Below, one piece after another: positions 13,948 to 34,673 of a stretch of DNA of 64,000 nt. Each line of letters begins with the position of its first letter. The first letter of the stretch is position 1. Both the position numbers and the translations under genes were made by a program. The notes below the pieces were generated by a model, which worked only from the letters and a program-made list of their open reading frames with translations, was not told the DNA's origin and did no database searches. Origin of the DNA: Steroidobacter denitrificans (lineage in GTDB: Bacteria > Pseudomonadota > Gammaproteobacteria > Steroidobacterales > Steroidobacteraceae); contig NZ_CP011971.1 of NCBI RefSeq assembly GCF_001579945.1, positions 3,346,030 to 3,410,029 on the forward strand, in the 5' to 3' direction.

Positions 13948-14376
13948 TTAGCCGACGATATACCGTTCCAACTGGTCGATGGTTTGTTGCTGTTCTTCTA
14001 TCACGGCCTTCACCAGATCACCGATCGAGACGATACCAATCACCCTGTCCCGTTCCACGACCGGCAAGTGCCGAATACGCCGCTCGGTGACCAGCTCCAT
14101 GCAGTGATGCACCGTTTCGTTCTCGGTAACGGTGATGACCGGCGAATACATGATCTCACGTACCTGCGTGTCCGAGCTGGAATGGCCTTGCAGGATGACT
14201 TTGCGTGCATAGTCACGCTCGGACACGATACCTACCAATTCCAGCCCCTTTAGAACCGGCAAGGCACCGACTCCCTTCGCTGCCATCAGCTGGATGGCCC
14301 TGAGCACCGGCTCCTCCGGCGCGATGGACCATACGGAGCGGCCCTTCAGATCAAGTAAATGTTTTACTCGTAGCAT
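13948..14376 (-). CDS. two-CBS-domain protein
   Basis: Small cytoplasmic protein (142 aa) made of a Bateman pair: CBS 1 at about residues 8-60 and CBS 2 at about 72-128, with the repeated pattern GxLPVL...VGIVSERDY and HLPVVE...IGIVSIGDL. Such proteins bind adenine nucleotides or SAM and often act as energy sensors. A short acidic/glutamine-rich helix forms the C-terminus. ATG 14376 is preferred because GGGGGAGG precedes it with five-base spacing; a GTG two codons upstream would fall within that site. The target is unknown and no partner gene is adjacent. Confidence 0.85.
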   Translation of the reverse strand: MLRVKHLLDLKGRSVWSIAPEEPVLRAIQLMAAKGVGALPVLKGLELVGIVSERDYARKVILQGHSSSDTQVREIMYSPVITVTENETVHHCMELVTERRIRHLPVVERDRVIGIVSIGDLVKAVIEEQQQTIDQLERYIVG

Positions 14377-23516: not shown

Positions 23517-24524
23517 ATGCGCTTACAGGAAATCATGAATACCGAGGTCGTGACCATCGGTCCGGAAGCAACAGCAAATCAGGCCTGGACCTTGATGGAG
23601 CGCAAGCGCATACGCCATCTGCTTGTCATGGAAGAGGGGCATCTCGTGGGCGTAATCTCCGAGCGGGACCTTGGAGGCCGTAAGGGTAGCGCGGTACGCA
23701 GAGGTCGCAAGGTGGAAGAGCTGATGGTAGAGGAAACAGCCAGCGCATCCCCGAGGACCACGCTGCGCCAGGCGGCGAACCTCATGCGCAGCCGGCTCAT
23801 CGGCTCGCTGCCGGTGCTGGAGGATGGACGTATCGTCGGCATCGTGACCGCGACGGATGTACTGGAGGAACTCGGACGTGGATCCACCCGTCCTGCCGTC
23901 CAGGCGAAACGGCGATCCATGCGGCTGGCGCCTGTAGCGACGCGGCGAAAGTCCCCAGCCAAGCAGGTTGGTACCGCCAAGCGCGGACGGAGCATCGCCA
24001 AACAGATAAAGCGCTCCGCAAAATCCAAACGCGGCTCCGCCCGGGACAGCGGCGGCGGCGATCCTCCCGCGCGACGCTCCAAGACCGATGCTCCGACGCG
24101 TGCTCCCATGGCTGCACGCGTGCCACGACGGGCCAAGCAGCTCGCAGGGCGTACGGCATCAGCGGAAGTTCCAGTCCACATCCGTGCCGCAGGGACGCAG
24201 CTCGAGCCCAGCGACAGGGACTACATCCGGCGCAAACTCGGACGCAAGCTCGGCAAGTTCGCCACGTCGATCGAGCGCGTCAGCGTGCGCGTCGAGGACA
24301 TCAATGGGCCTCGCGGGGGCATCGACAAGCGCTGCCGCATCAAGGTGGTGCTGAGCGGCCTGCCGAGCGTCATGGCGGAGGAGCGTCACGATACCGTGCA
24401 GGCGGCGGTCGATGCCGCCCTGACGACAGCGGAACGCGCGGTCCGCCAGCCCGTGCGGCGGCGACGTATGCAGCCGATGAGGCGTCGCAATACATCGAAA
24501 TTGCATACCCTCGACCTGGTATGA
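23517..24524 (+). CDS. CBS-pair protein fused to an HPF/RaiA-like ribosome-binding domain
   Basis: A 335-residue fusion. Residues 1-120 are a pair of CBS domains (MNTEVVTIGPEA; HLLVMEEGHLVGVISERDL; GSLPVLEDGRIVGIVTATDV), a module that senses adenine nucleotides. Residues 121-217 are a low-complexity linker very rich in Lys, Arg, Ser and Ala. Residues 218-312 resemble the hibernation-promoting-factor/RaiA fold (PVHIRAAGTQLEP start, a KLGRKLGKFATSIERVSVRV helix-strand pair, CRIKVVLSG, and a DTVQAAVDAALTTAERAVR helix). A basic tail ends the protein. ATG 23517 follows AGAGGTG. I infer a stress-responsive ribosome-associated protein switched by nucleotide binding. The next genes make NAD and PRPP. 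The HPF assignment rests on motif pattern, not alignment. Confidence 0.75.
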   Translation: MRLQEIMNTEVVTIGPEATANQAWTLMERKRIRHLLVMEEGHLVGVISERDLGGRKGSAVRRGRKVEELMVEETASASPRTTLRQAANLMRSRLIGSLPVLEDGRIVGIVTATDVLEELGRGSTRPAVQAKRRSMRLAPVATRRKSPAKQVGTAKRGRSIAKQIKRSAKSKRGSARDSGGGDPPARRSKTDAPTRAPMAARVPRRAKQLAGRTASAEVPVHIRAAGTQLEPSDRDYIRRKLGRKLGKFATSIERVSVRVEDINGPRGGIDKRCRIKVVLSGLPSVMAEERHDTVQAAVDAALTTAERAVRQPVRRRRMQPMRRRNTSKLHTLDLV

Positions 24525-24640
24525 ATCCCGCAGCTTTCGAACTAGAGGCGCTCCGCCGGATCATTCTTCGCGTGACGCCACGCACGACAGGTTCAACACC
24601 GAGCTCTTGTATCCGTTTCATGTGCGCCGCTACTAGAGCA

Positions 24641-24654
24641 AGCGCCATGGCGCT
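24641..24654. repeat. 14-bp perfect palindrome at the nicotinamidase stop
   Basis: AGCGCCATGGCGCT reads identically on both strands and overlaps the first two bases of the minus-strand stop codon of the nicotinamidase gene (24653-24655). It lies in the 128-base gap between convergent genes and might end transcripts, though no T-run follows. Confidence 0.3.
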
Positions 24655-25318
24655 AAAGAACCATTCCCTGGCGTGTGCTCGCCAAATGCTTGGAGTCGAT
24701 GACCTGCACATTTTTGTCATCGAGTGCGGCGCGTAAAACGTCATCGCCGGCCGGGTTCACCGAGCGCGTGAGATCCCAGATCACGGCCACCTCGAAACCC
24801 AGATCGGCAGCATCCTCGGCACTCCAGCGCACGCAGAAGTCGCGCGCGAGCCCGCAGACGTACGCCCGCTTGATGCCACGCTCACGAAGATAGCCCGCGA
24901 GCCCCGTCGCGGGCCGCTCGCCGTTCTCGTCCCAGTTGTTGCGGAAACCGCTGTAGGAGTCGACCTTGGGATCTGTGCCCTTGCGGATGATCGCATCGAC
25001 ATGCTCGAGCGGCAGCGAGTCATGTAGCGCGGCGCCGCGCGTGCCGGCTATGCAGTGGTCCGGCCAGAGCACCTGCTCGCGGCCATGAAGCAGCATCACC
25101 TCGAAGGGCGTGCGGCCGGCGTGGCTGCTCGCGAACGATACATGCCCGGCGGGATGCCAGTCCTGCGTCGCCACGACACAGTCGAACAAACACGATTCAA
25201 GCAACTCGCGGATCGGCGCCAGGATCGCTTCGCCGCCGGTCACGGCGAGCGCGCCCCCAGGCAGGAAATCATACTGAATATCGATCAGCAGCAACGCTGT
25301 TCGCGCTCTATCGTTCAC
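24653..25318 (-). CDS. pncA: nicotinamidase
   Basis: Hydrolyses nicotinamide to nicotinate, the entry step of NAD salvage. The cysteine hydrolase triad is visible: Asp in LLLIDIQYDF, Lys in IRKGTDPKVDSYSGF, and Cys in GLARDFCVRW. The metal site is DWHPAGH. The block VLWPDHCIAGT matches the PncA signature WPDHCV, separating it from isochorismatases. I use GTG at 25318 (221 aa), because ACGAGGAG stands seven bases before it; the TTG start 11 codons upstream would include that site. It lies downstream of pncB on the same strand with 176 bases between. Confidence 0.9.
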   Translation of the reverse strand: MNDRARTALLLIDIQYDFLPGGALAVTGGEAILAPIRELLESCLFDCVVATQDWHPAGHVSFASSHAGRTPFEVMLLHGREQVLWPDHCIAGTRGAALHDSLPLEHVDAIIRKGTDPKVDSYSGFRNNWDENGERPATGLAGYLRERGIKRAYVCGLARDFCVRWSAEDAADLGFEVAVIWDLTRSVNPAGDDVLRAALDDKNVQVIDSKHLASTRQGMVL

Positions 25319-25494
25319 GATGCGTCTCCTCGTATCGTCTTTCCGCGACAAGTATGCCCGAGGCTCACCGGTAGAAGTACGGACAGCGCGATTGGCCCGC
25401 GGGCGTTAACGTCATCCGAGAGCGGCTCGGACGGCCCGTCCGACGATCCGCCGGTGTTAAGAATGGTTGCTGGAGCCTGCGATTGGATACGCTG

Positions 25495-26856
25495 CTATGC
25501 CTGCAGGTCGATGCGACGATCGACCTCGCGCGCGAGAGTCTCGAGCGCCGGCGCAATTTCGACGGGATAGGCAGCGTGCCGCGTCAGCGAGCGCAGATCC
25601 TCCGGCAGGCGACGCAGTTCGTGCTCCACGCGCATGCGTATCGCATGGAGCGTGGGCGACGGCGCGACGCGCCGGCCGGCGCGCATGACGGGCTCGAGCA
25701 GCGCCTCTCCCGGCTGAGGGTCGTCCACGAGCGTAAGCACATCGCGCGTGAGTTTCCCGCGGCGGTCGTAGTGGCGAAAGACCTGCTTGGCGCCGGGCCA
25801 GGTCAACTTGCCACTGGACCGCTTGCGCCGCGCAATGCCGGCGTATTCCTGAAGCTTGTACGCGCAATCGAGCGCGGGTGCATCGCTCGAGACGTCGAGG
25901 CTCGTGCCGATACCGAAACCGTCGATCGGAGCGCCTTCTCCAAGCAGTCTTTGCACTTCGAGTTCATCGATACCGCCACTTGCAAAAATTCCGATCCGTG
26001 TCTGTCCCCCCTCGTCGAGAATTCGCCGCACGCGGTGCGCAAGCTGGCCCAGATCGCCGCTATCCAGGCGCACCGAATGGATATCTATGCCGGCAGCGGC
26101 AAGGCCACGGGTGAGACTCACCACGCGTTCGGCCCCGGTTTCAGTATCGTAGGTATCGATGAGCAGCACGATCGCCCCGCGATGGCAGCGCGCGAAGTTT
26201 TCGAATGCCGCAAGCTCGGAATCATGGGCTTCGATGAACGAATGCGCCATCGTACCGAAGACCGGTATGCCGAAGAGCCGTTTTGCGAGTACGGTCGCCG
26301 TGCCGGTGAATCCGGCAAGGTAGCTGGCGCGCGCGGCCAAGATGGCTGCTTCGGCGCCGTGCGAGCGGCGCATGCCGAAATCCACGAGCTGTTTGCCCGG
26401 TGCCGCGAGCACACAGCGAGCAGCCTTGGAAGCGATCAGCGTTTGATAATGCAGGATGTTGATCAAACGGCTCTCGACGAACTGCGCCTCCGCAAGAGGC
26501 GCAGTGACGCGCAGCAGCGGCTCGTTGCCGAAAATCGCCGTGCCTTCGGGCACGGCGTCGACGTCGCCGGTGAAATGCATCCCCTGGAGCGAATCGAGGA
26601 ACGCTTCCCCGAACAGTTCCGTGGATCGCAAGGTGTCGAGATCCGCCGTCGAGAATCGCAGGCCCGTGAGATAGTCGATGGCCTGATCGAGACCCGCGGC
26701 GATCAGGAAGTTACGCTGCGGAGGCAATCTGCGCACAAAGAATTCGAATATGGCCGTGTCGTTCATGCCGCGGTCGAAATACGCCTGCAGCATCGTGAAC
26801 TGGTACAAGTCGCACATGAGAGCGCTGTTGTGCCAGTCCGGCGAACGTTGTGTCAT
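25495..26856 (-). CDS. pncB: nicotinate phosphoribosyltransferase
   Basis: Joins nicotinate to PRPP, with ATP hydrolysis, to make nicotinate mononucleotide. Family marks are ALMCDLYQFTMLQAYF near the N-terminus, FFVRRLPPQRNFLIAAGL, the GTMAHSFIEAHDSE segment holding the phosphorylatable active-site histidine region, IHSVRLDSGDL and FASGGIDE. Length of 453 aa matches the bacterial PncB2-like class (440-460 aa), not the 400-aa E. coli class. GGAGAG precedes ATG 26856. It is divergent from the PRPP synthase gene with only 23 bases between start codons, and precedes pncA on its own strand. Confidence 0.93.
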   Translation of the reverse strand: MTQRSPDWHNSALMCDLYQFTMLQAYFDRGMNDTAIFEFFVRRLPPQRNFLIAAGLDQAIDYLTGLRFSTADLDTLRSTELFGEAFLDSLQGMHFTGDVDAVPEGTAIFGNEPLLRVTAPLAEAQFVESRLINILHYQTLIASKAARCVLAAPGKQLVDFGMRRSHGAEAAILAARASYLAGFTGTATVLAKRLFGIPVFGTMAHSFIEAHDSELAAFENFARCHRGAIVLLIDTYDTETGAERVVSLTRGLAAAGIDIHSVRLDSGDLGQLAHRVRRILDEGGQTRIGIFASGGIDELEVQRLLGEGAPIDGFGIGTSLDVSSDAPALDCAYKLQEYAGIARRKRSSGKLTWPGAKQVFRHYDRRGKLTRDVLTLVDDPQPGEALLEPVMRAGRRVAPSPTLHAIRMRVEHELRRLPEDLRSLTRHAAYPVEIAPALETLAREVDRRIDLQA

Positions 26857-26879
26857 TGGCGCTCTCCAGTGATTCGGAC

Positions 26880-27875
26880 ATGAAAATCTTCGCTTTGAAT
26901 ACGAGCCGCGAGTTTGGCGCAGCCATCGCCGCGACCGTCGGTATCGAACTCACAGCGCACGAAGAGCGCGAATTCGAGGACGGCGAGTTCAAGGTGCGAA
27001 CGCTCGAAAGCGTCCGCAACGAGCGGGTATTCGTTTGCCAGACGCTCCACGGCGATGCCACGCAGAGCACGAACGACAAGTTGTGTCGGTTGCTGTTCTT
27101 CATCGGTGCGCTCAAGGATGCGGCCGCGGCCGACGTAACAGTGGTCGTTCCGTATCTCGCATATGCGCGCAAAGACCGGCGTACAAAGCCGCGCGATCCG
27201 GTGACCACACGTTACCTGGCGGCGCTGTTCGAAGCCGTCGGACTGGATGCGATCGTTACGATGGATGTTCACAACATCGCGGCATTCGAGAACGCGTTCC
27301 GCTGCCGCAAGGAGCATCTCGAGGCCGCGCCGCTCATAGTCCGGCACTTTCATCACCGTATCGAGATAGGCCGACGTATCGTCGTGCTCGCACCCGACGC
27401 GGGCGGTGTCAAACGCGCCAAAGCTTTCGCGGAGCTTTTCGCGGACTCGGCAGGGCGTGCAGTGGAGCTTGCATTCATGGAGAAACAGCGCAGCGAAGGC
27501 CACGTAACCGGTTCCGCATTCGCCGGGGATGTATGCGCCGCCGCGGTGATCATCGTCGACGATCTTGCGAGCACCGGCACGACACTTGCGCGGGCCGCGC
27601 GGATGTGCCGGGAACGCGGCGCAGCCGAGGTGTACGCCGCCGTTACGCACGGGATATTCGGCTTCGGCGCAGCCGAAGCCCTGGGCAGCACCGACATCGA
27701 CGGTATTGTGACCACGGATACGATCGGCGATGTTTGCCGGCGCTGTCCCGCACTCGCCCCGAAGCTTGCGGTACTCGAAACGGCACCCTTGTTTGCCGAA
27801 GCCGTACGCCGTATGGCGCATCTGTCGTGTTCCCACGACAACCTCGTTCCTACGAAACTGCCAACGCATGGGTGA
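26880..27875 (+). CDS. ribose-phosphate pyrophosphokinase (PRPP synthase), divergent paralogue
   Basis: Makes PRPP from ribose 5-phosphate and ATP. Recognisable blocks are EFEDGEFKVRTLESVRNERVFV-type start region, VVVPYLAYARKDRRTKPRDP (ATP and flexible loop), TMDVHNIAAFENAF, APDAGGVKRAKAFAE, and the PRPP loop VIIVDDLASTGTTL. Length 331 aa is slightly longer than housekeeping Prs (about 315), and several positions differ from the usual consensus (for example VDDLASTGTT for VDDMIDTAGT), so I read it as a second, specialised copy; no ipk or rplY neighbour is present. ATG 26880 is preferred; an in-frame GTG at 26850 would overlap the divergent pncB start. Its natural customer is the adjacent nicotinate phosphoribosyltransferase. 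Confidence 0.85.
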   Translation: MKIFALNTSREFGAAIAATVGIELTAHEEREFEDGEFKVRTLESVRNERVFVCQTLHGDATQSTNDKLCRLLFFIGALKDAAAADVTVVVPYLAYARKDRRTKPRDPVTTRYLAALFEAVGLDAIVTMDVHNIAAFENAFRCRKEHLEAAPLIVRHFHHRIEIGRRIVVLAPDAGGVKRAKAFAELFADSAGRAVELAFMEKQRSEGHVTGSAFAGDVCAAAVIIVDDLASTGTTLARAARMCRERGAAEVYAAVTHGIFGFGAAEALGSTDIDGIVTTDTIGDVCRRCPALAPKLAVLETAPLFAEAVRRMAHLSCSHDNLVPTKLPTHG

Positions 27876-28896
27876 TCGCATCGAGCGCCTTGGCGAGATA
27901 CCCGTGCCCCCGCTCGATCCACCGGCGACGTAGATCCTCATCCATAGGTTCGTCCAGGTGCCGGACGCAGATCAGCGCCCGTACCATGGCACGACGGCTC
28001 GAATAGAAATCGAGCAGATTTTGTGATACGAAGTCGCCGGAGAGTTCGCGGTAGAGCGCAGTGATCTCGTGTGCCAGATCGGCTCTGTCGAGTTGTTCGC
28101 ACTCGAGCGCCAGGAACATGATCTCCTCTGCCGTATCGAGCAGGCGCAACGCAGCTGAAAACTCCAGACAGTCGATGATCTGAGGATTCTCACCGAGCAG
28201 TATGTGTTCGGGCCGCAGGTCGCCATGTGCGTCGACGATCCGCCCCGCCGCGCAACGAGCCTCCAGCGTTTTCGCGAAGACTTGCAGGAACTCAACCTGC
28301 CCGGCCACGATACGTTCGATCGGGCATTCACCGAGCGACGACTCATAGGCGAGCAACTCGGTACGGCGCTGCCGGGTCTCCAACTCCAGGCGCCGAAGAT
28401 ATTCGGGGCCGTCCCAGGCGGCGCGGTGAGCACGCGCATAGTATGCAACGAGCTTTGCGACGAGCTCGCGCAGCTCTTCCTGGCCGATCGGTCCTGCCGC
28501 GGCGCGGGCATCGAGCATGCGCTCGCGCGGCAGTCGATGCATCTTGACGAGCCAGTCGACGATCGTGCCGCCGGCAGCGGAATCGATGGTCAGCGTCTTT
28601 CCGGTGCTCAACAACGGCACCACCGCGATGTAGACCGCTTCAGCGAGTCTCATGTTCAGCGTGAACTCGAGTTCGCAATAGGTACGCCGCAGTTCGACCG
28701 TCGTGAAGTCGATCTCATAAAACCGGATGGGCTTCTTGAGCTTGTACGCATATCTTCCCGCCAGAAAGACGCAGGCGAAATGCGTTTCTATGAATTCGAC
28801 GTCAGCAGGAGCGTGTGGATATGAACCGGGATGCCGCAGGAACCGGGTTTTCATCGCGAATGGAACTGCGCAATGCGGCGGCACGATATTCATCAT
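27850..28896 (-). CDS. aminoglycoside-phosphotransferase-fold kinase, COG2187 type
   Basis: A 348-residue protein with an APH/protein-kinase-like fold. An N-terminal segment with YAYKLKKPIRF (phosphate-binding lysine) leads to the catalytic loop HGDLRPEH at residues 224-231 and the metal-binding IDCLEF at 241-246, where Asp242 stands for the DFG aspartate. Family members are often fused to a P-loop kinase domain; here that second domain is absent. The substrate is unknown. The 3' end overlaps the convergent PRPP synthase gene by 26 bases. ATG 28896 is the first start; ATG 28854 (MKTRFLRHPG) is an alternative, and neither has a clear binding site. Confidence 0.75.
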   Translation of the reverse strand: MMNIVPPHCAVPFAMKTRFLRHPGSYPHAPADVEFIETHFACVFLAGRYAYKLKKPIRFYEIDFTTVELRRTYCELEFTLNMRLAEAVYIAVVPLLSTGKTLTIDSAAGGTIVDWLVKMHRLPRERMLDARAAAGPIGQEELRELVAKLVAYYARAHRAAWDGPEYLRRLELETRQRRTELLAYESSLGECPIERIVAGQVEFLQVFAKTLEARCAAGRIVDAHGDLRPEHILLGENPQIIDCLEFSAALRLLDTAEEIMFLALECEQLDRADLAHEITALYRELSGDFVSQNLLDFYSSRRAMVRALICVRHLDEPMDEDLRRRWIERGHGYLAKALDAITHALAVS

Positions 28897-28970
28897 AGGT
28901 ATCGGAATGCGAAGATCATATACGTACGCCCCACATTTGCGGCACGAAGCTGGAGCCGCATACTGAAAAA

Positions 28971-29669
28971 ATGAATATATCCTTCGACGATTCGGCTCAT
29001 GTATTTGTCGATCGTAGCGAAGCAGGCCGCGAGCTCGGTGCGTGGTTTCGCCAACGGCCGCCGATGGGTGAGCTGATCATACTAGGCTTGCCCCGTGGTG
29101 GCGTGCCCGTCGCCCGGGAGCTTGCCGACACCCTGGATGCGCCGCTCGACGTACTTCTGGTGCGCAAGCTAGGCGCACCGTTCAATCCCGAGTTCGCGGC
29201 AGGTGCGGTCGCAGCGGGTGGCATTATCGTCTATAACGCGGACGCGTTCACCGCGCGCACGCTCGAGAAACGTGATCTTGAACCCATCATCGAGCGCGAA
29301 AAAGCGGAGCTTGCGCGTCGGGAGCAGGTCTATCGAGCTGGAAGGCCGCCGCTCGCCATTGAAGGCAAGACCGTGATTCTTGTCGATGACGGCATTGCCA
29401 CCGGATCGACGATGCAAGCGGCAGTGGATGCGGCGCGGAAGATGCAAGCGGGACAAGTCATCGTCGCGGTCCCGACCGCGTCGCGTCAGGCACTCGATGA
29501 ATTGGAGCGCAGCGCCGACCTGGTCGTCGCCTTGTGCGCCCCGGAGCCCTACATCGCCGTCGGCAGATGGTACAAATATTTTCCCCAGATCCAGGATCGC
29601 GAGGTCGTGGAGTTGCTCTCGGCCTACGAGCCTCGACACGCCGGATACGAGGTCTCGGGAAAGTCGTAA
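28971..29669 (+). CDS. predicted phosphoribosyltransferase, COG1926 type
   Basis: A 232-residue type I phosphoribosyltransferase-fold protein. The PRPP-binding loop VILVDDGIATGSTM lies at residues 135-148, and GLPRGGVPVARELAD at 39-53 forms the opposite phosphate-binding edge. LLVRKLGAPFNPEFAAGAV and CAPEPYIAVGRWYKYFPQ are characteristic of the COG1926 group, whose base or acceptor is not known. It is divergent from the kinase gene with 74 bases between starts and lies at the end of the NAD/PRPP cluster. The flanking PRPP synthase suggests it too uses PRPP. Confidence 0.8.
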   Translation: MNISFDDSAHVFVDRSEAGRELGAWFRQRPPMGELIILGLPRGGVPVARELADTLDAPLDVLLVRKLGAPFNPEFAAGAVAAGGIIVYNADAFTARTLEKRDLEPIIEREKAELARREQVYRAGRPPLAIEGKTVILVDDGIATGSTMQAAVDAARKMQAGQVIVAVPTASRQALDELERSADLVVALCAPEPYIAVGRWYKYFPQIQDREVVELLSAYEPRHAGYEVSGKS

Positions 29670-29941: not shown

Positions 29942-30520
29942 CTACTGCTGCAGAGGCCGTGGATGCGGCAACTCGACCGTGGACCCTTCCGTTACCATGA
30001 ACTTACCAAGTTGTGACAACTCAGCGTTAGCAAGATGACCACGTACACACGCAATTGGTCCTCCATGCGTGACGACAATGACGAAGCCGTCTTTCGGCAG
30101 CGCGTGCCACGCTCGAATGCTGCGTGCAAACAGTTGCGCCGTCGTTTCTCCCCCGCCCGGCCGAAATTTATCCGGCTCGGTGAGCATACGGTCCATGGCG
30201 CTTCCGCTCGCGCGCCAGATCGAATCCCATGAACGTGTTTCCCAGCACCCGAAGTTTCGCTCGCGCCAGCGAGGATCGGTACGAGATACGACGCCCGCCG
30301 CTCCGGCAATAAGATCGGCCAGATACGATGTGCGCAATAGTCCCGAGTGAAATACGGCGGCTATCCTGCCTGCGCCGTATTGCCGTAGAACGGCGCCGAC
30401 AATCGATTTCGATCGTCTGACGCCATCCCGGCTGAGGCCGACATCGGTCTGTCCATAACAGCGTCCGCGCCATCGCAGGGCCACTTCGGCATGGCGAACC
30501 AACAGTATCCGCCCATTCAC
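29942..30520 (-). CDS. cobC: histidine phosphatase, probable alpha-ribazole-5'-phosphate phosphatase
   Basis: Phosphohistidine phosphatase-superfamily enzyme (192 aa); in B12 synthesis it dephosphorylates alpha-ribazole phosphate or adenosylcobalamin phosphate. The catalytic LLVRHAEVA is at the N-terminus, GLSRDGVRRSK and WRERNFGCWE follow, and the second histidine is in VVTHGGPI. GTG 30520 is chosen because it overlaps the cobS stop by four bases (GTGA). It is the last gene of the riboswitch-led cobalamin operon. Substrate assignment rests on context, since this family is broad. Confidence 0.8.
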   Translation of the reverse strand: MNGRILLVRHAEVALRWRGRCYGQTDVGLSRDGVRRSKSIVGAVLRQYGAGRIAAVFHSGLLRTSYLADLIAGAAGVVSRTDPRWRERNFGCWETRSWDSIWRASGSAMDRMLTEPDKFRPGGGETTAQLFARSIRAWHALPKDGFVIVVTHGGPIACVRGHLANAELSQLGKFMVTEGSTVELPHPRPLQQ

Positions 30521-31293
30521 GCAGCCACCAGGACAAAGAGAACCACGAGCTGACCTGCATAGGTCGCAAATCCAAGGCAATCGCCGGTGCTGCCGCCGAT
30601 ATGCATCATAAGCAATCGTCTGAACCACGTGATAAACACCATGCTGGCTGCGGCGATGGTCAGCACGGCGAATGGCGCGGCCCAGACAAGCGGCAGCAAG
30701 CCTGGCGATGCGAGTGCGAACGCCCAGGCTGCGTACCGTACGGACACTCGGCCGCCAACGTCCTTCGCCAACGTGTTGGAAGAGGCGACCGGTGAAACCG
30801 ATGCCATCACCATGACGGCCAGCAGCCTGCCGACGGTGGCTGCTCCAACCACGCCGACAAGTAATGTTGCCGCCGGCAGCAGACAGGTGAGCGCGACACG
30901 CAGTCCAACGCCGAGCAGGAGCGCCAGCGAACCATACGTGCCGATCCGGCTGTCTTTCATGATCTCGCGTGCATGCTCCGGATCATTTCCGCCGCCCACG
31001 GCGTCGCAGAAATCCGCAACGGCATCTTCATGAAACGCACCGGTCAAGCGCGCCTCCACGACGAGCGCAATCAGCACTGCGACGAGACGCGGCCACCACT
31101 GCTCGACAAGGATGATGGTGAGCGCCGTGATGGCCCCGATGAGCGATCCTACGAACGGAAACCAGATCACTGCGCGTTTGAGCCCATCGAGAACCGCCTC
31201 GCGCGACAAGGAACTCACGGCAGGTATGGGTATGCGCGTAAGAAACTGAACAGCCAGCAGCGGCAACGCCCAATGCGGACACTCAGTCTTCAC
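30517..31293 (-). CDS. cobS: adenosylcobinamide-GDP ribazoletransferase (cobalamin synthase)
   Basis: Membrane enzyme joining adenosylcobinamide-GDP with alpha-ribazole or its phosphate. The family marks are FLTRIPIP at the start, GAFHEDAVADFCDAVGGG (Asp/Glu-rich metal site), MKDSRIGTYG, and five to six hydrophobic segments after it. I use GTG 31293 (258 aa), which overlaps the cobT end by 11 bases; ATG 31311 or a start at 31347 would lengthen it without family support. A four-base overlap joins it to the phosphatase gene. Confidence 0.9.
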   Translation of the reverse strand: MKTECPHWALPLLAVQFLTRIPIPAVSSLSREAVLDGLKRAVIWFPFVGSLIGAITALTIILVEQWWPRLVAVLIALVVEARLTGAFHEDAVADFCDAVGGGNDPEHAREIMKDSRIGTYGSLALLLGVGLRVALTCLLPAATLLVGVVGAATVGRLLAVMVMASVSPVASSNTLAKDVGGRVSVRYAAWAFALASPGLLPLVWAAPFAVLTIAAASMVFITWFRRLLMMHIGGSTGDCLGFATYAGQLVVLFVLVAA

Positions 31294-32302
31294 GCGGCAC
31301 GCCCAGTCCATCGAGCGAGGCGACATCGCGAAGCAACGAAACCGCACTGTCGAGCAGCGGCAGTGCGATCAAAGCCCCGGTTCCTTCGCCGAGCCGCATG
31401 TTCCAATCGAGCAACGGTCTCAGGCCCAAGGCTGCAAGTGCACTACCGTGACCGGGTTCGGAAGACAGATGCGAGGCGACCATGCATGCAGCCGTGTCGG
31501 ATTGCAGGGTGGCGGCGATCAATGCCGCCGCGGTGGCCACATAGCCGTCGATCAGCACCACCACGTCGTGCCGGGCGCTTTCGGCAAAGAATCCTGCCAT
31601 CGCCGCCATCTCAAAGCCAGCGACCGAAGCAATCGCCTTCCGCGTGTCTTGTCTCAGTATTTTCCGCGCCTTTGCGGAAGCTTCGGCCACGATCTCCTTC
31701 TTGATGCGGAGAATGACATCATCGGCGCCGGCACCGCGACCGGTCGCCTGCTCCGCCGACACTTCGGCCAGCAAGCTGGTGAGACAGGCCGCAGCCGTCG
31801 TATTACCGATACCCATCTCTCCAGCGATGAGAACCTTGTAGCCATTCTCGATGGCTGCCTGGGCTTCACGCACACCCACATTCCACGCCGCGTCGAATTC
31901 ATCGGCCGTCATCGCGGGTTCTTTGGACAAATCACGAGTACCGTGGGCAACGCGAGCTTGGGTAAAATTCGAGGCACATAGGTCGTCGAGCGATGTGGAA
32001 ACACCCACATCCACGATCCGCAAGTCGCACCGATGCGTTCCGGCAAGCGCAGCACTGGCCGATCGACCCGCAACAATCGTACGCACCATGAGCGCCGTCA
32101 CTTCCGGGCTCCACGCCGACACCCCGCTCGCAACCACGCCATGATCCGCCGCGAACAGTACCAGGCGGCGCGGCCGTACCACGGGCTCCAGTGTCTTCTG
32201 AATACGCGCTATTCGTGCCGCAAGCTCCTCGAGCTTTCCGAGGCTGCGTTTGGGTTTGGCCAGAGCGTCCAGGTGCGCCCAGATGTCGGTTTCGGTCGTC
32301 AT
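31283..32302 (-). CDS. cobT: nicotinate-nucleotide-dimethylbenzimidazole phosphoribosyltransferase
   Basis: Activates the lower ligand of B12 by making alpha-ribazole phosphate from nicotinate mononucleotide and dimethylbenzimidazole. RSLGKLEELAARIARIQ, FAADHGVVASGVSAW, GEMGIGNTTAAACL and, near the end, the catalytic glutamate region RLGEGTGALIALPLLD are all present; length 339 aa is usual. ATG 32302 overlaps the cobQ stop by four bases. It uses the same nicotinate mononucleotide that pncB, 5 kb away, would produce. Confidence 0.95.
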   Translation of the reverse strand: MTTETDIWAHLDALAKPKRSLGKLEELAARIARIQKTLEPVVRPRRLVLFAADHGVVASGVSAWSPEVTALMVRTIVAGRSASAALAGTHRCDLRIVDVGVSTSLDDLCASNFTQARVAHGTRDLSKEPAMTADEFDAAWNVGVREAQAAIENGYKVLIAGEMGIGNTTAAACLTSLLAEVSAEQATGRGAGADDVILRIKKEIVAEASAKARKILRQDTRKAIASVAGFEMAAMAGFFAESARHDVVVLIDGYVATAAALIAATLQSDTAACMVASHLSSEPGHGSALAALGLRPLLDWNMRLGEGTGALIALPLLDSAVSLLRDVASLDGLGVPRED

Positions 32303-33759
32303 GCGGAACACCGTGCGATATCCAACAACCTGTCCAGATCGACTGAGCGCTCCAACACTGCCGCAAGCTCATCCAAAGCAGCGTCTATCCGCTGGTGTTG
32401 CTGGACTCTGTCGGACGAAACTCCAAGTGACTCCAGCCAGGCGCCGCGAAACTCCGCCCGATTGTAGAGTCCGTGAACATAGCAACCGGCAACGAGTCCG
32501 TCGGCGCGTATGGCACCGGCGGCGCTGCCGTCATCGAAGCGCAGCCACGGAGTGAGACCAGGCTCCAAACGCGTTTGACCTGCATGAATCTCGTATCCGT
32601 CGAACACCGCGCCGCTATCGATGTGAATTCCGCGTACCTCGCCTACCTGCTTGGTCTTCATAAGGTACGTATCCATCGGCAACAGATCCAATCCATCGAC
32701 GGATTCCACGGGGCCTTCCATACCTTCCGGGTCGGTGATGCTGCTTCCCAACATCTGGAATCCGCCACAGATGCCGACGACGTGGCCGCCGCGCCTTACA
32801 TGCGCCGCGATATCGATATCCCAGCCCTGGCGTCGCAAGAACTTGAGATCCGCAATGGTGGCTTTCGTACCGGGAATAATGACCACTTTCGCGTCGCCGG
32901 GAAGTGCGGTGCCTGGAGGAATCAGCTGCAACGAGGCGCCGGAATCCTGCATCAAGGCATCAAAGTCATCGAAATTTGCAATATGCGGTAGCAAGGGTAC
33001 GACGATTCGTAAAGCCCCTGGCGTTGCAGCAGGAGCGTTCAATGTGACGGCATCTTCCGCCGGAAGCGTACGCGCAGCTGCGAGCCATGGAACCACACCG
33101 AGTGAGGGCCACGAAGTGCGCCGGGTGATCTCGGCGACACCTGATTCAAACAGACTGATATCACCACGGAACTTATTGATAATAAATGCCTTGATCATTG
33201 CCCGATCTTGTCTGCTGAGCAGCGTGCTCGTACCTACGAGCGCGGCGATGACACCACCGCGATCGATATCGCCGATGAGGACGACCGGAACACGCGCGGC
33301 GCGCGCAAAGCCCATATTGGCGATATCGTGAGCGCGTAAGTTGCTTTCAGCTGGGCTACCGGCGCCTTCTACTACTACGATATCAGCCTCGCGCGAGAGT
33401 CTGCCAAAGGATTCCAGTACGATCTCCAGGAGTTCGGCCTTGTGCTGGCGGAAGTAGCCCGCGTCGACGGTTCCGCGAACGACACCGCGAATGACGAGTT
33501 GTGCGCCGATATCCGATTGCGGTTTGATGAGAACGGGGTTCATGTGAACACTCGCAGGCACGCGGCACGCGATGGCTTGTAATGCCTGGGCACGGCCGAT
33601 TTCACCGCCATCGGCTGCCACCGCGGCATTGTTGGACATGTTCTGTGGTTTGAAAGGCCGTACCGTCAAGCCGCGGTTCACGAGTGCGCGGCAAACACCG
33701 GCGACAATCACGGACTTGCCCACATCAGAACCGGTACCCTGGAACATCACTGCAGCCAT
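32299..33759 (-). CDS. cobQ: adenosylcobyric acid synthase (glutamine-hydrolysing)
   Basis: Amidates four side chains of the corrin ring, turning adenosylcobyrinic acid a,c-diamide into cobyric acid. The N-terminal dethiobiotin-synthase-like domain carries VMFQGTGSDVGKS as P-loop; the C-terminal class I glutaminase domain carries the nucleophile in VVGICGGFQMLG and the late histidine in CYVHGLYNR. ATG 33759 (486 aa) has GGGAG before it and overlaps the cbiB end by 13 bases; ATG 33747 is a shorter option. Its presence shows that the organism amidates corrin precursors, not only salvages cobinamide. Confidence 0.94.
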   Translation of the reverse strand: MAAVMFQGTGSDVGKSVIVAGVCRALVNRGLTVRPFKPQNMSNNAAVAADGGEIGRAQALQAIACRVPASVHMNPVLIKPQSDIGAQLVIRGVVRGTVDAGYFRQHKAELLEIVLESFGRLSREADIVVVEGAGSPAESNLRAHDIANMGFARAARVPVVLIGDIDRGGVIAALVGTSTLLSRQDRAMIKAFIINKFRGDISLFESGVAEITRRTSWPSLGVVPWLAAARTLPAEDAVTLNAPAATPGALRIVVPLLPHIANFDDFDALMQDSGASLQLIPPGTALPGDAKVVIIPGTKATIADLKFLRRQGWDIDIAAHVRRGGHVVGICGGFQMLGSSITDPEGMEGPVESVDGLDLLPMDTYLMKTKQVGEVRGIHIDSGAVFDGYEIHAGQTRLEPGLTPWLRFDDGSAAGAIRADGLVAGCYVHGLYNRAEFRGAWLESLGVSSDRVQQHQRIDAALDELAAVLERSVDLDRLLDIARCSA

Positions 33760-34673
33760 GCGATCACTCCCACCAGCAACCAGAGCAGCAGACACGCCGT
33801 GACATACACTCGCAGCGCATCGCGAAGATCATTTACACGGGGCTTCGGCCCAGTGCCAAAAGTGGCACGCCAGGCCAGCTCTCCATCGTAGGAAACGGGA
33901 CCACCGAGCTGTATGCCCAAGACGCCCGCCATCGCCGCTTCGGTCCAGCCCGCATTCGGCGAGGCGTGCTTGCCCGCATCGCGCCACATGATGCCAAGGC
34001 CTCGAAATCGAGCCAGACACAGAAACAGGCCGGCGATTCTTGCTGGAACGAAATTCATGACGTCATCGGTGCGTGCAGCAGCCCATCCGAAAGCACGATA
34101 GCGCTGGTCGCAATGGCCGATGAGGCTATCGGCGGTGTTGACGGCCTTGTATATGAATAACCCGGGAAGCCCACCTACCAGAAACCAGAACGCGGGCGCA
34201 ATGACGCCATCGCAGAGACTCTCCGCCAGGCTCTCGGTCGCTGCCGTCGCAATGCCGGTCTCATCCAGTATTGCCGTGTCACGCCCAACGATGCAGGCAA
34301 CTTCGGAGCGAGCTCGTTCCAGGTCATTGGCAAGAAGCGGATTGAGTACTGCCACGACATGAATATAGAGACTACGTTGGGCCAGACCGGTCGTCGCCGC
34401 CAATAGCCCGACAATGATGAATGTCCGATCGGCGAGCTGTTCGAGCAGCCATGCCGCGCCGAATGCAATCAACATGACGAGTCCGAGCAGCAACATGCCT
34501 TTTGTATAGTTGCCCTTTCCATTGCGGGTGTTCCACGTCTGCTCCAATGCAGTGATGACGTGACCGATCCACACCACCGGATGTCGGATGCGGCGATACA
34601 AGGCGTCGGGATATCCAAAGCACGCCTCGAGAGCGAGTGCGATAGACAACTGTTGTGCGTGGTCGAGACTCAT
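33747..34673 (-). CDS. cbiB: adenosylcobinamide-phosphate synthase
   Basis: Membrane enzyme (CbiB/CobD) attaching aminopropanol phosphate to cobyric acid. FGYPDALYRRIRHPVVWIGHVI at the N-terminus, VGRDTAILDETGIATAATESLAES in the middle and FVPARIAGLFLC near residue 205 are family-specific. Four to five hydrophobic segments; length 308 aa. The ATG overlaps the preceding ATPase gene stop by four bases. The aminopropanol phosphate comes from the threonine-phosphate decarboxylase encoded upstream in the operon. Confidence 0.93.
   Translation of the reverse strand: MSLDHAQQLSIALALEACFGYPDALYRRIRHPVVWIGHVITALEQTWNTRNGKGNYTKGMLLLGLVMLIAFGAAWLLEQLADRTFIIVGLLAATTGLAQRSLYIHVVAVLNPLLANDLERARSEVACIVGRDTAILDETGIATAATESLAESLCDGVIAPAFWFLVGGLPGLFIYKAVNTADSLIGHCDQRYRAFGWAAARTDDVMNFVPARIAGLFLCLARFRGLGIMWRDAGKHASPNAGWTEAAMAGVLGIQLGGPVSYDGELAWRATFGTGPKPRVNDLRDALRVYVTACLLLWLLVGVIAWLQ

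Follow-up and report, generated by a model that had tools for sequence, protein, structure and literature searches.

Whether six neighbouring genes of Steroidobacter denitrificans work together in dormancy or stress is the question raised by a 64,000-nucleotide stretch of its genome (the window), corresponding to C1:3346030-3410029 of a single 3.47 Mb contig. At 23517-29669 the window carries six intact open reading frames (ORFs) in the strand order + - - + - +. They encode a CBS-HPF fusion (+), a nicotinamidase (-), a nicotinate phosphoribosyltransferase (NAPRT; -), a second ribose-phosphate pyrophosphokinase (the synthase of phosphoribosyl pyrophosphate, PRPP; +), an APH-fold kinase (-) and a phosphoribosyltransferase (PRT; +). 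The kinase and the PRT are of what we take to be the COG2187 and COG1926 types. An initial annotation, made from the sequence alone, had named these six families and their tight, alternating-strand layout; both were borne out by intact ORFs with matches to Pfam and NCBIfam models and by overlapping gene ends. We find that kinase, PRPP synthase and PRT form a recurrent core. The genes for salvage of nicotinamide adenine dinucleotide (NAD) are optional, and the CBS-HPF gene is a rare, lineage-specific addition to the cluster. We read the whole as a small cluster serving maintenance under stress or in low-oxygen-type conditions, with a probability of about 0.58.

Relatives of the kinase were collected from species genomes with a profile derived from an alignment of 13 short forms (described below). 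The best 80 of at least 396 confirmed relatives were compared with 40 random 20-kb windows, all taken from the order to which the window belongs (five genomes). By tblastn, PRPP synthase was found at 66 of the 80 kinase loci, the COG1926-type PRT at 35, NAPRT at 16 and the nicotinamidase gene, pncA, at 13, each with 0/40 in the controls. Kinase, PRPP synthase and PRT occurred together at 32 loci; kinase, PRPP synthase, NAPRT and pncA at 10; and all five families at five (L073, L089, L109, L111 and L131). Loci with the kinase/PRPP synthase pair include ones from Proteobacteria, Bacteroidota, Terriglobia, Verrucomicrobia and Desulfobulbaceae, and metagenome-assembled genomes hold many of these loci. 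Note that at least five of the 80 loci (L071, L077, L085, L094 and L124) also belong to the order set analyzed below. The conserved co-occurrence expected for six families thus holds for five; as a member of the recurrent set the CBS-HPF protein was rejected, its HPF half being found at 0/80 kinase loci.

The kinase gene (27850..28896, - strand) encodes a short standalone protein of 348 residues that scores 25.2 bits against APH (PF01636; cut-off 23.2) and is matched by no NCBIfam model. When 147 genomes from the order, its own included, were searched with the kinase, 64 had matches; fragments aside, these divide into a short standalone form and a long form. The short form, with open frames of ~350-480 residues, is present in 13 genomes, and the other 12 proteins are 35-48% identical to the window kinase; the long forms mostly have open frames of ~510-750 residues and are ~28-35% identical to it. 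The P-loop domain AAA_33 exceeded the Pfam cut-off in 16/16 long proteins of the order given to Pfam (a 17th is cut by a contig end) and in 4/4 planctomycete long proteins run, out of six, giving a total of 20/20. The genome's own long COG2187 copy carries AAA_33 over cut-off, and no P-loop family was detected in the window kinase by Pfam.

The two forms differ in their neighbours. A PRPP synthase gene lay within ~1.5 kb of 12/13 short forms of the order, the window counted, versus 0/17 long forms, which were judged on ~1.5 kb per side or, at some contig ends, less. No PRPP synthase was seen beside three of the order's long forms viewed with ~10 kb either. Within ~10 kb of the 12 other short forms we found PRPP synthase in 12/12 cases, the COG1926-type PRT in 7/12, pncA in 1/12 and NAPRT in 0/12; it is because of the last two counts that the NAD-salvage genes are called optional. 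When the 80 loci were examined by ORFs, PRPP synthase accompanied 64/74 short forms versus 0/6 long forms, a contrast that is confounded with phylum because all six long forms are planctomycetes. The 17 long forms of the order are not planctomycetes and are free of this confounding.

Within the pair, a tail-to-tail arrangement prevails: among the 64 loci where a short kinase is accompanied by a PRPP synthase ORF, 50 have the two genes convergent and no more than 1.5 kb apart, and 44 of these 50 gaps measure -106 to +132 bases. In the window, the PRPP synthase gene (26850..27875, + strand; TIGR01251, 251.6 bits, cut-off 113) has its next-best match in the genome at 597619, with 35% identity, and shares with the kinase gene a 26-bp overlap of the 3' ends (27850..27875), an arrangement frequent among the relatives. 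The window thus has the features of the pair as we propose it: a kinase free of a P-loop domain and an adjoining second PRPP synthase, placed tail to tail. Distance matrices of kinase and PRPP synthase correlated with r = 0.75 (n = 65), part of which is explained by shared descent. The COG1926-type PRT (E < 1e-15) was present in 13/13 genomes with a short kinase versus 6/134 others, a comparison that ignores kinship and in which a single genus contributes six of the 13. A fusion of PRPP synthase to an extra domain in long ORFs of relatives was rejected, as 5/5 such ORFs were without another Pfam family. We found no published account of the short-kinase/PRPP synthase pair in the literature searched.

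Further families recur around the kinase. With 0/40 in the controls throughout, they comprise standalone CBS proteins (20 of the 80 loci), PolX (15), Hsp20 (14), PGA_cap (12), class II ribonucleotide reductase (RNR; 10), Usp (9), an NMD3-like zinc protein of the BCAM0308 family (9), RtcB (8) and HPF (7); these families and their queries were chosen from the 80 loci themselves, which favours the loci over the controls, and the p values are uncorrected for multiple tests or kinship. Not significant alone were standalone HPF (7/80, p 0.053), LonB (0.053), PpsA (7/80, 0.053), GroEL (0.19) and ACS (0.29), nor was the window CBS half used as query (6/80 loci versus 1/40 controls, p 0.26). Two candidate partners were rejected: NAD synthase (0/80 loci and 0/40 controls; present on one plasmid) and thymidine phosphorylase, which was not recognised by eye among the recurrent neighbours. 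A PRPP synthase, bll3116, is listed beside thymidine phosphorylase in a Bradyrhizobium microoxia comparison (PMC6515984). Separately, RtcB RNA ligase and, by eye, an archease-like protein lie near the kinase at L073, L089, L109, L124, L126, L131 and L134, which hints at RNA repair.

Kinase relatives were present in 103 plasmid records, and the three examined all carry the kinase/PRPP synthase pair. On an Azospirillum plasmid the pair, its kinase annotated as hypothetical, is accompanied by a Crp/Fnr regulator, two Usp, NAPRT, a BCAM0308 family protein, Hsp20, PpsA and a PRT 45% identical to the window COG1926-type protein. A Sinorhizobium plasmid typed as conjugative combines the pair with Usp, Hsp20, PpsA, GroEL and CBS, and on a Methylocella plasmid an NAD synthase gene lies beside PRPP synthase. 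The lxa low-oxygen locus has a related content: Table 2 of PMC4981469 names for it PncB and PpsA along with Usp genes, BCAM0308, a heat shock protein and an RNR-like gene. Families that recur in the kinase loci include NAPRT, Hsp20 and Usp as well as class II RNR and that of BCAM0308. The window cluster differs from lxa in having its six genes only, no FNR box and, in addition, the CBS-HPF fusion. Usp, Hsp20 and PpsA gave no tblastn match in the 64-kb window (one query each, E 1e-3); relatives among the 80 loci carry them at 9, 14 and 7 loci, respectively. Thus, the window cluster works like an lxa island but is not classed as one, because these three genes are not matched there.

PncB2 (Rv0573c) and Rv2626c are members of the DosR (DevR) regulon of M. 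tuberculosis, whose genes are scattered under one regulator, in contrast to the clustered genes of the window. PncB2 is an NAPRT (PMC7873932), as in the window, and Rv2004c, in the devR section of PMC1950094, is COG2187-like, as is the window kinase. In the latter paper COG2187, to which Rv2004c belongs, is described as a domain of unknown function. The likeness to a dormancy regulon that the initial annotation saw stands for NAPRT, for the Rv2004c-like kinase and for the CBS half of the fusion, which matches Rv2626c, a CBS pair (1y5h); for islands of this kind it is not new, lxa having already been compared with DosR in print (PMC6127331). Its proposal of a portable dormancy or stress module was upheld in part: Usp, Hsp20 and CBS occur in many loci and the pair lies on three plasmids, but the CBS-HPF protein is not in the set and NAD salvage is optional.

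FNR-type boxes (TTGAT-N4-ATCAA, at most one mismatch) numbered 98 in the 1.29 Mb of the 80 loci versus 16 in the controls, which amount to 0.80 Mb and are matched in GC. Such a box lay no more than 300 bp upstream of 20/206 module genes, at 14/80 loci, versus 0-5/206 for 19 permuted palindromes; in these counts mapped starts are estimated, and a divergent gene pair may share one box. FNR-type control is supported, as a prediction from sequence, for some relatives and not for the window copy. Oxygen control is unproven for the latter because the surroundings of the cluster contain no FNR-type box, even with one mismatch allowed. Across the whole window, FNR-like patterns with up to two mismatches numbered 33 versus 16.65 expected, with 0/100 shuffles as high; four of the 33 are inside the cluster, all with two mismatches.

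A second island in the same genome, G000:C1:2430000-2449990 (L047), repeats the combination of NAPRT, HPF and COG2187. Its COG2187 protein is of the long form, and its NAPRT (G000:C1:2435298-2436611) is 53% identical to that of the window. The island also contains acetate kinase, Hsp20, HemN, NnrS, a cation ATPase and an FNR-type regulator, which scores 183.5 bits, under the 228-bit FNR cut-off, with cysteines visible in its sequence; one FNR-like box is present at L047:8374. The genome has two NAPRT, two COG2187-type proteins and three HPF domains in total, of which one each is in the cluster and one each within ~13 kb at the second island. When these seven genes were placed at random, the double grouping arose in 8/4,000,000 trials, the 13-kb limit having been chosen after the second island was seen.

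The CBS-HPF gene (23517..24524, + strand) encodes 335 residues, arranged as two CBS domains (Pfam CBS x2, 100.2 bits), a 90-residue basic linker predicted to be disordered and a C-terminal HPF/RaiA domain (Ribosomal_S30AE, 41.9 bits, cut-off 23.7). In the AlphaFold model, ten-residue blocks scored 83-97 for the CBS half, 74-98 for the HPF half and mostly <50 for the linker (124-213), which contains 18 R, 10 K, 3 D and 0 E. The pTM of 0.42 leaves the mutual placement of the CBS and HPF domains undefined. Both CBS repeats carry what we take to be the GxxS/TxxD motif (GVISERD and GIVTATD). With bacterial HPF/RaiA proteins the fusion shares a Ribosomal_S30AE domain over the Pfam cut-off, but its HPF half is divergent, scoring 22.7 bits against the NCBIfam HPF model yfiA (cut-off 40.9), finding solved chains at a best E of only 0.0004 and belonging to a branch with the motif NGPRGG(I/V)D. 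Six standalone HPF relatives, most of them with a basic N-terminal tail, are 53-59% identical to it. A further CBS-like stretch in the window (14008-14373, - strand) is 29% identical to the CBS half.

Among the matches listed for the 147 genomes of the order, with up to 14 candidates scored per genome, there was no other CBS-HPF fusion. For the class, 369 genomes were scanned (E 1e-14, up to five candidates scored per genome), and one other intact fusion was listed (G485, 62% identical). In G454 (L152 / L208) the fusion halves lie in different reading frames, through sequencing error or decay, and in G160 (L153 / L214) a standalone HPF of the same branch immediately adjoins a CBS gene in the same orientation and may represent the protein in unfused form. 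The other five families were not found at the eight loci around CBS-HPF relatives (L207-L214, two of them short). Viral contigs gave four pattern matches, none confirmed, and none of 148 plasmid records covered 80% of the fusion, the 15 matches listed hitting its CBS part.

A comparable protein is known from archaea. HibA, an archaeal CBS-HPF hibernation factor, binds AMP and ATP and protects ribosomes (PMC13324472), and HVO_2384 is a haloarchaeal CBS protein with an HPF-type domain (PMC12607858). HibA and the window protein have in common an N-terminal CBS module and a C-terminal HPF/RaiA-type domain; they differ in the number of CBS domains, four in HibA and two in the window protein, and in the long basic linker of the latter. 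In the literature searched we found no report of a bacterial CBS-HPF fusion; it goes unmentioned in the available parts of the HibA paper (PMC13324472), and the available part of PMC13289028 treats CBS proteins and HPF separately. The likelier view, from a comparison covering bacterial sequences only, is that the bacterial fusion is independent of archaeal HibA.

From the protein families, a course of events may be proposed for the cluster. The nicotinamidase would convert nicotinamide to nicotinate, NAPRT would combine nicotinate with PRPP to give nicotinate mononucleotide (NaMN), and housekeeping NadD and NadE would carry NaMN on to NAD. The second PRPP synthase would provide a supply of PRPP separate from that of the housekeeping enzyme, and the COG1926-type enzyme, from a family not known to have an assigned function, would be an additional consumer. 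Less certainly, the short kinase may phosphorylate a ribose-type compound, feeding or complementing the PRPP synthase, and the PRPP synthase may stand in for the C-terminal P-loop kinase domain of the long proteins. In the fusion, the HPF domain would attach to the 30S subunit, with the CBS pair sensing adenylates. The genome contains nadA, and the idea that all NAD comes from salvage was therefore rejected.

Several observations weigh against reading the cluster as a low-oxygen-type maintenance unit, or against parts of that reading, in addition to the missing FNR-type box, the scarcity of NAD-salvage genes near the order's short kinases, the presence of NadA and the planctomycete origin of the long forms among the 80 loci. 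The cluster is not one operon, because its strands are mixed, and no sigma-70-like promoter match was found for it. In the available parts of the lxa paper, J2315, the strain on which the definition of lxa is based, lacks orthologs of PncB and PpsA, one isolate also expressed the locus aerobically, and Table 2, with some rows hypothetical, leaves PRPP synthase, nicotinamidase and phosphotransferase unnamed (PMC4981469). As to the substrate class of the kinase, VIA-align Z values were similar for sugar, choline and antibiotic kinases. Adenylate gating is weakened because ribosome binding by HibA shows no clear effect of AMP or ATP (PMC13324472). A more specific proposal would make the short COG2187 kinase and the PRPP synthase a widespread two-gene PRPP source, the split counterpart of the COG2187/P-loop protein, sustaining NAD and nucleotides in oxygen-starved or dormant cells, with the fusion as a HibA-independent, adenylate-gated hibernation factor parking ribosomes at high AMP. 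We consider this rather unlikely; both the HibA result and the restriction of the 80-locus long forms to planctomycetes lower its standing.

Among the alternatives, it is possible, if doubtful, that the trigger is a shortage of energy or nutrients (adenylate state, stationary phase) instead of oxygen, which would make the cluster an oxygen-independent offshoot of the islands. The lack of an FNR box near the cluster, a CBS half that could sense adenylates and the location of the best FNR-type regulator and one FNR-like box in the second island all point this way, but a missing consensus box is weak evidence and some relatives do have FNR boxes, in low-oxygen-type islands. The role of NaMN offers another explanation, since CobT consumes this product of NAPRT in forming alpha-ribazole phosphate. 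Directly downstream of the cluster, at 29942-34673 (- strand), lie what we take to be CobC, CobS, CobT, CobQ and CbiB, and the NAD-salvage genes could supply NaMN to these adjoining cobalamin genes. We hold this to be improbable: none of the five cobalamin proteins has a match in the 80 kinase loci, with the window serving as positive control, and the core pair is not known to take part in making B12.

Placement of the six genes side by side by chance, without a common task, would suit their alternating strands, the position of CBS-HPF outside the recurrent set and the rarity of NAPRT and pncA around the kinase in the same order. The recurrence of five families together and the repetition of NAPRT, HPF and COG2187 at a second site make this very unlikely. 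Equally hard to accept is a role for the APH-fold protein in modifying antibiotics, or as a sugar kinase of the maltokinase kind with no connection to PRPP. Its predicted structure (AlphaFold pLDDT 95.4) retrieves kinase folds with VIA-align, and its motifs HGDLRPEH and IIDCLEF are largely kept in the relatives. Against such a role, the sole match of the kinase profile to solved-structure sequences is an aminoglycoside kinase at E 0.0015, and PRPP synthase is linked to 64/74 short forms.

The maintenance-cluster reading has consequences beyond this genome. The tie of COG2187 and COG1926 to PRPP synthase, and partly to NAD salvage, in several phyla would give these families a concrete substrate class to test, and the dormancy question around the Rv2004c family becomes accessible in harmless organisms. 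If functional as read, the CBS-HPF protein would tie the energy state of the cell to ribosome parking in bacteria, convergently with archaea.

All five enzymes of the cluster carry what we take to be catalytic-type motifs. The nicotinamidase (24653..25351, - strand) is of the PncA type, scoring 188.5 bits against PRK11609 (cut-off 174) and carrying the D/K/C motifs DIQYDF, IIRKG and GLARDFC; its best solved-structure match is 2wt9, and its start codon is TTG (25351) or an in-frame GTG further in. NAPRT (25495..26856, - strand; PRK09243.1-3, 641.6 bits, cut-off 503), one of two in the genome, overlaps divergently with the start of the PRPP synthase gene (26856/26850), for which an ATG at 26880 is the likelier start over 26850. 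The COG1926-type PRT (28971..29669, + strand; PF00156, 59.6 bits, cut-off 26.3; best solved structure 1wd5/TT1426) is the single match of its kind in the whole genome. At L143:9237-9905 an alpha/beta-hydrolase-like sequence (by eye) was grouped with the COG1926 ORFs, which suggests PRT-hydrolase fusions in some relatives. A search for CobQ, used as a marker of the empty site, found no match in two genomes of the same genus. Upstream, the cluster is flanked by what are presumably a TonB receptor and a PepSY-type protein, and its GC content is within the range of the flanking DNA.

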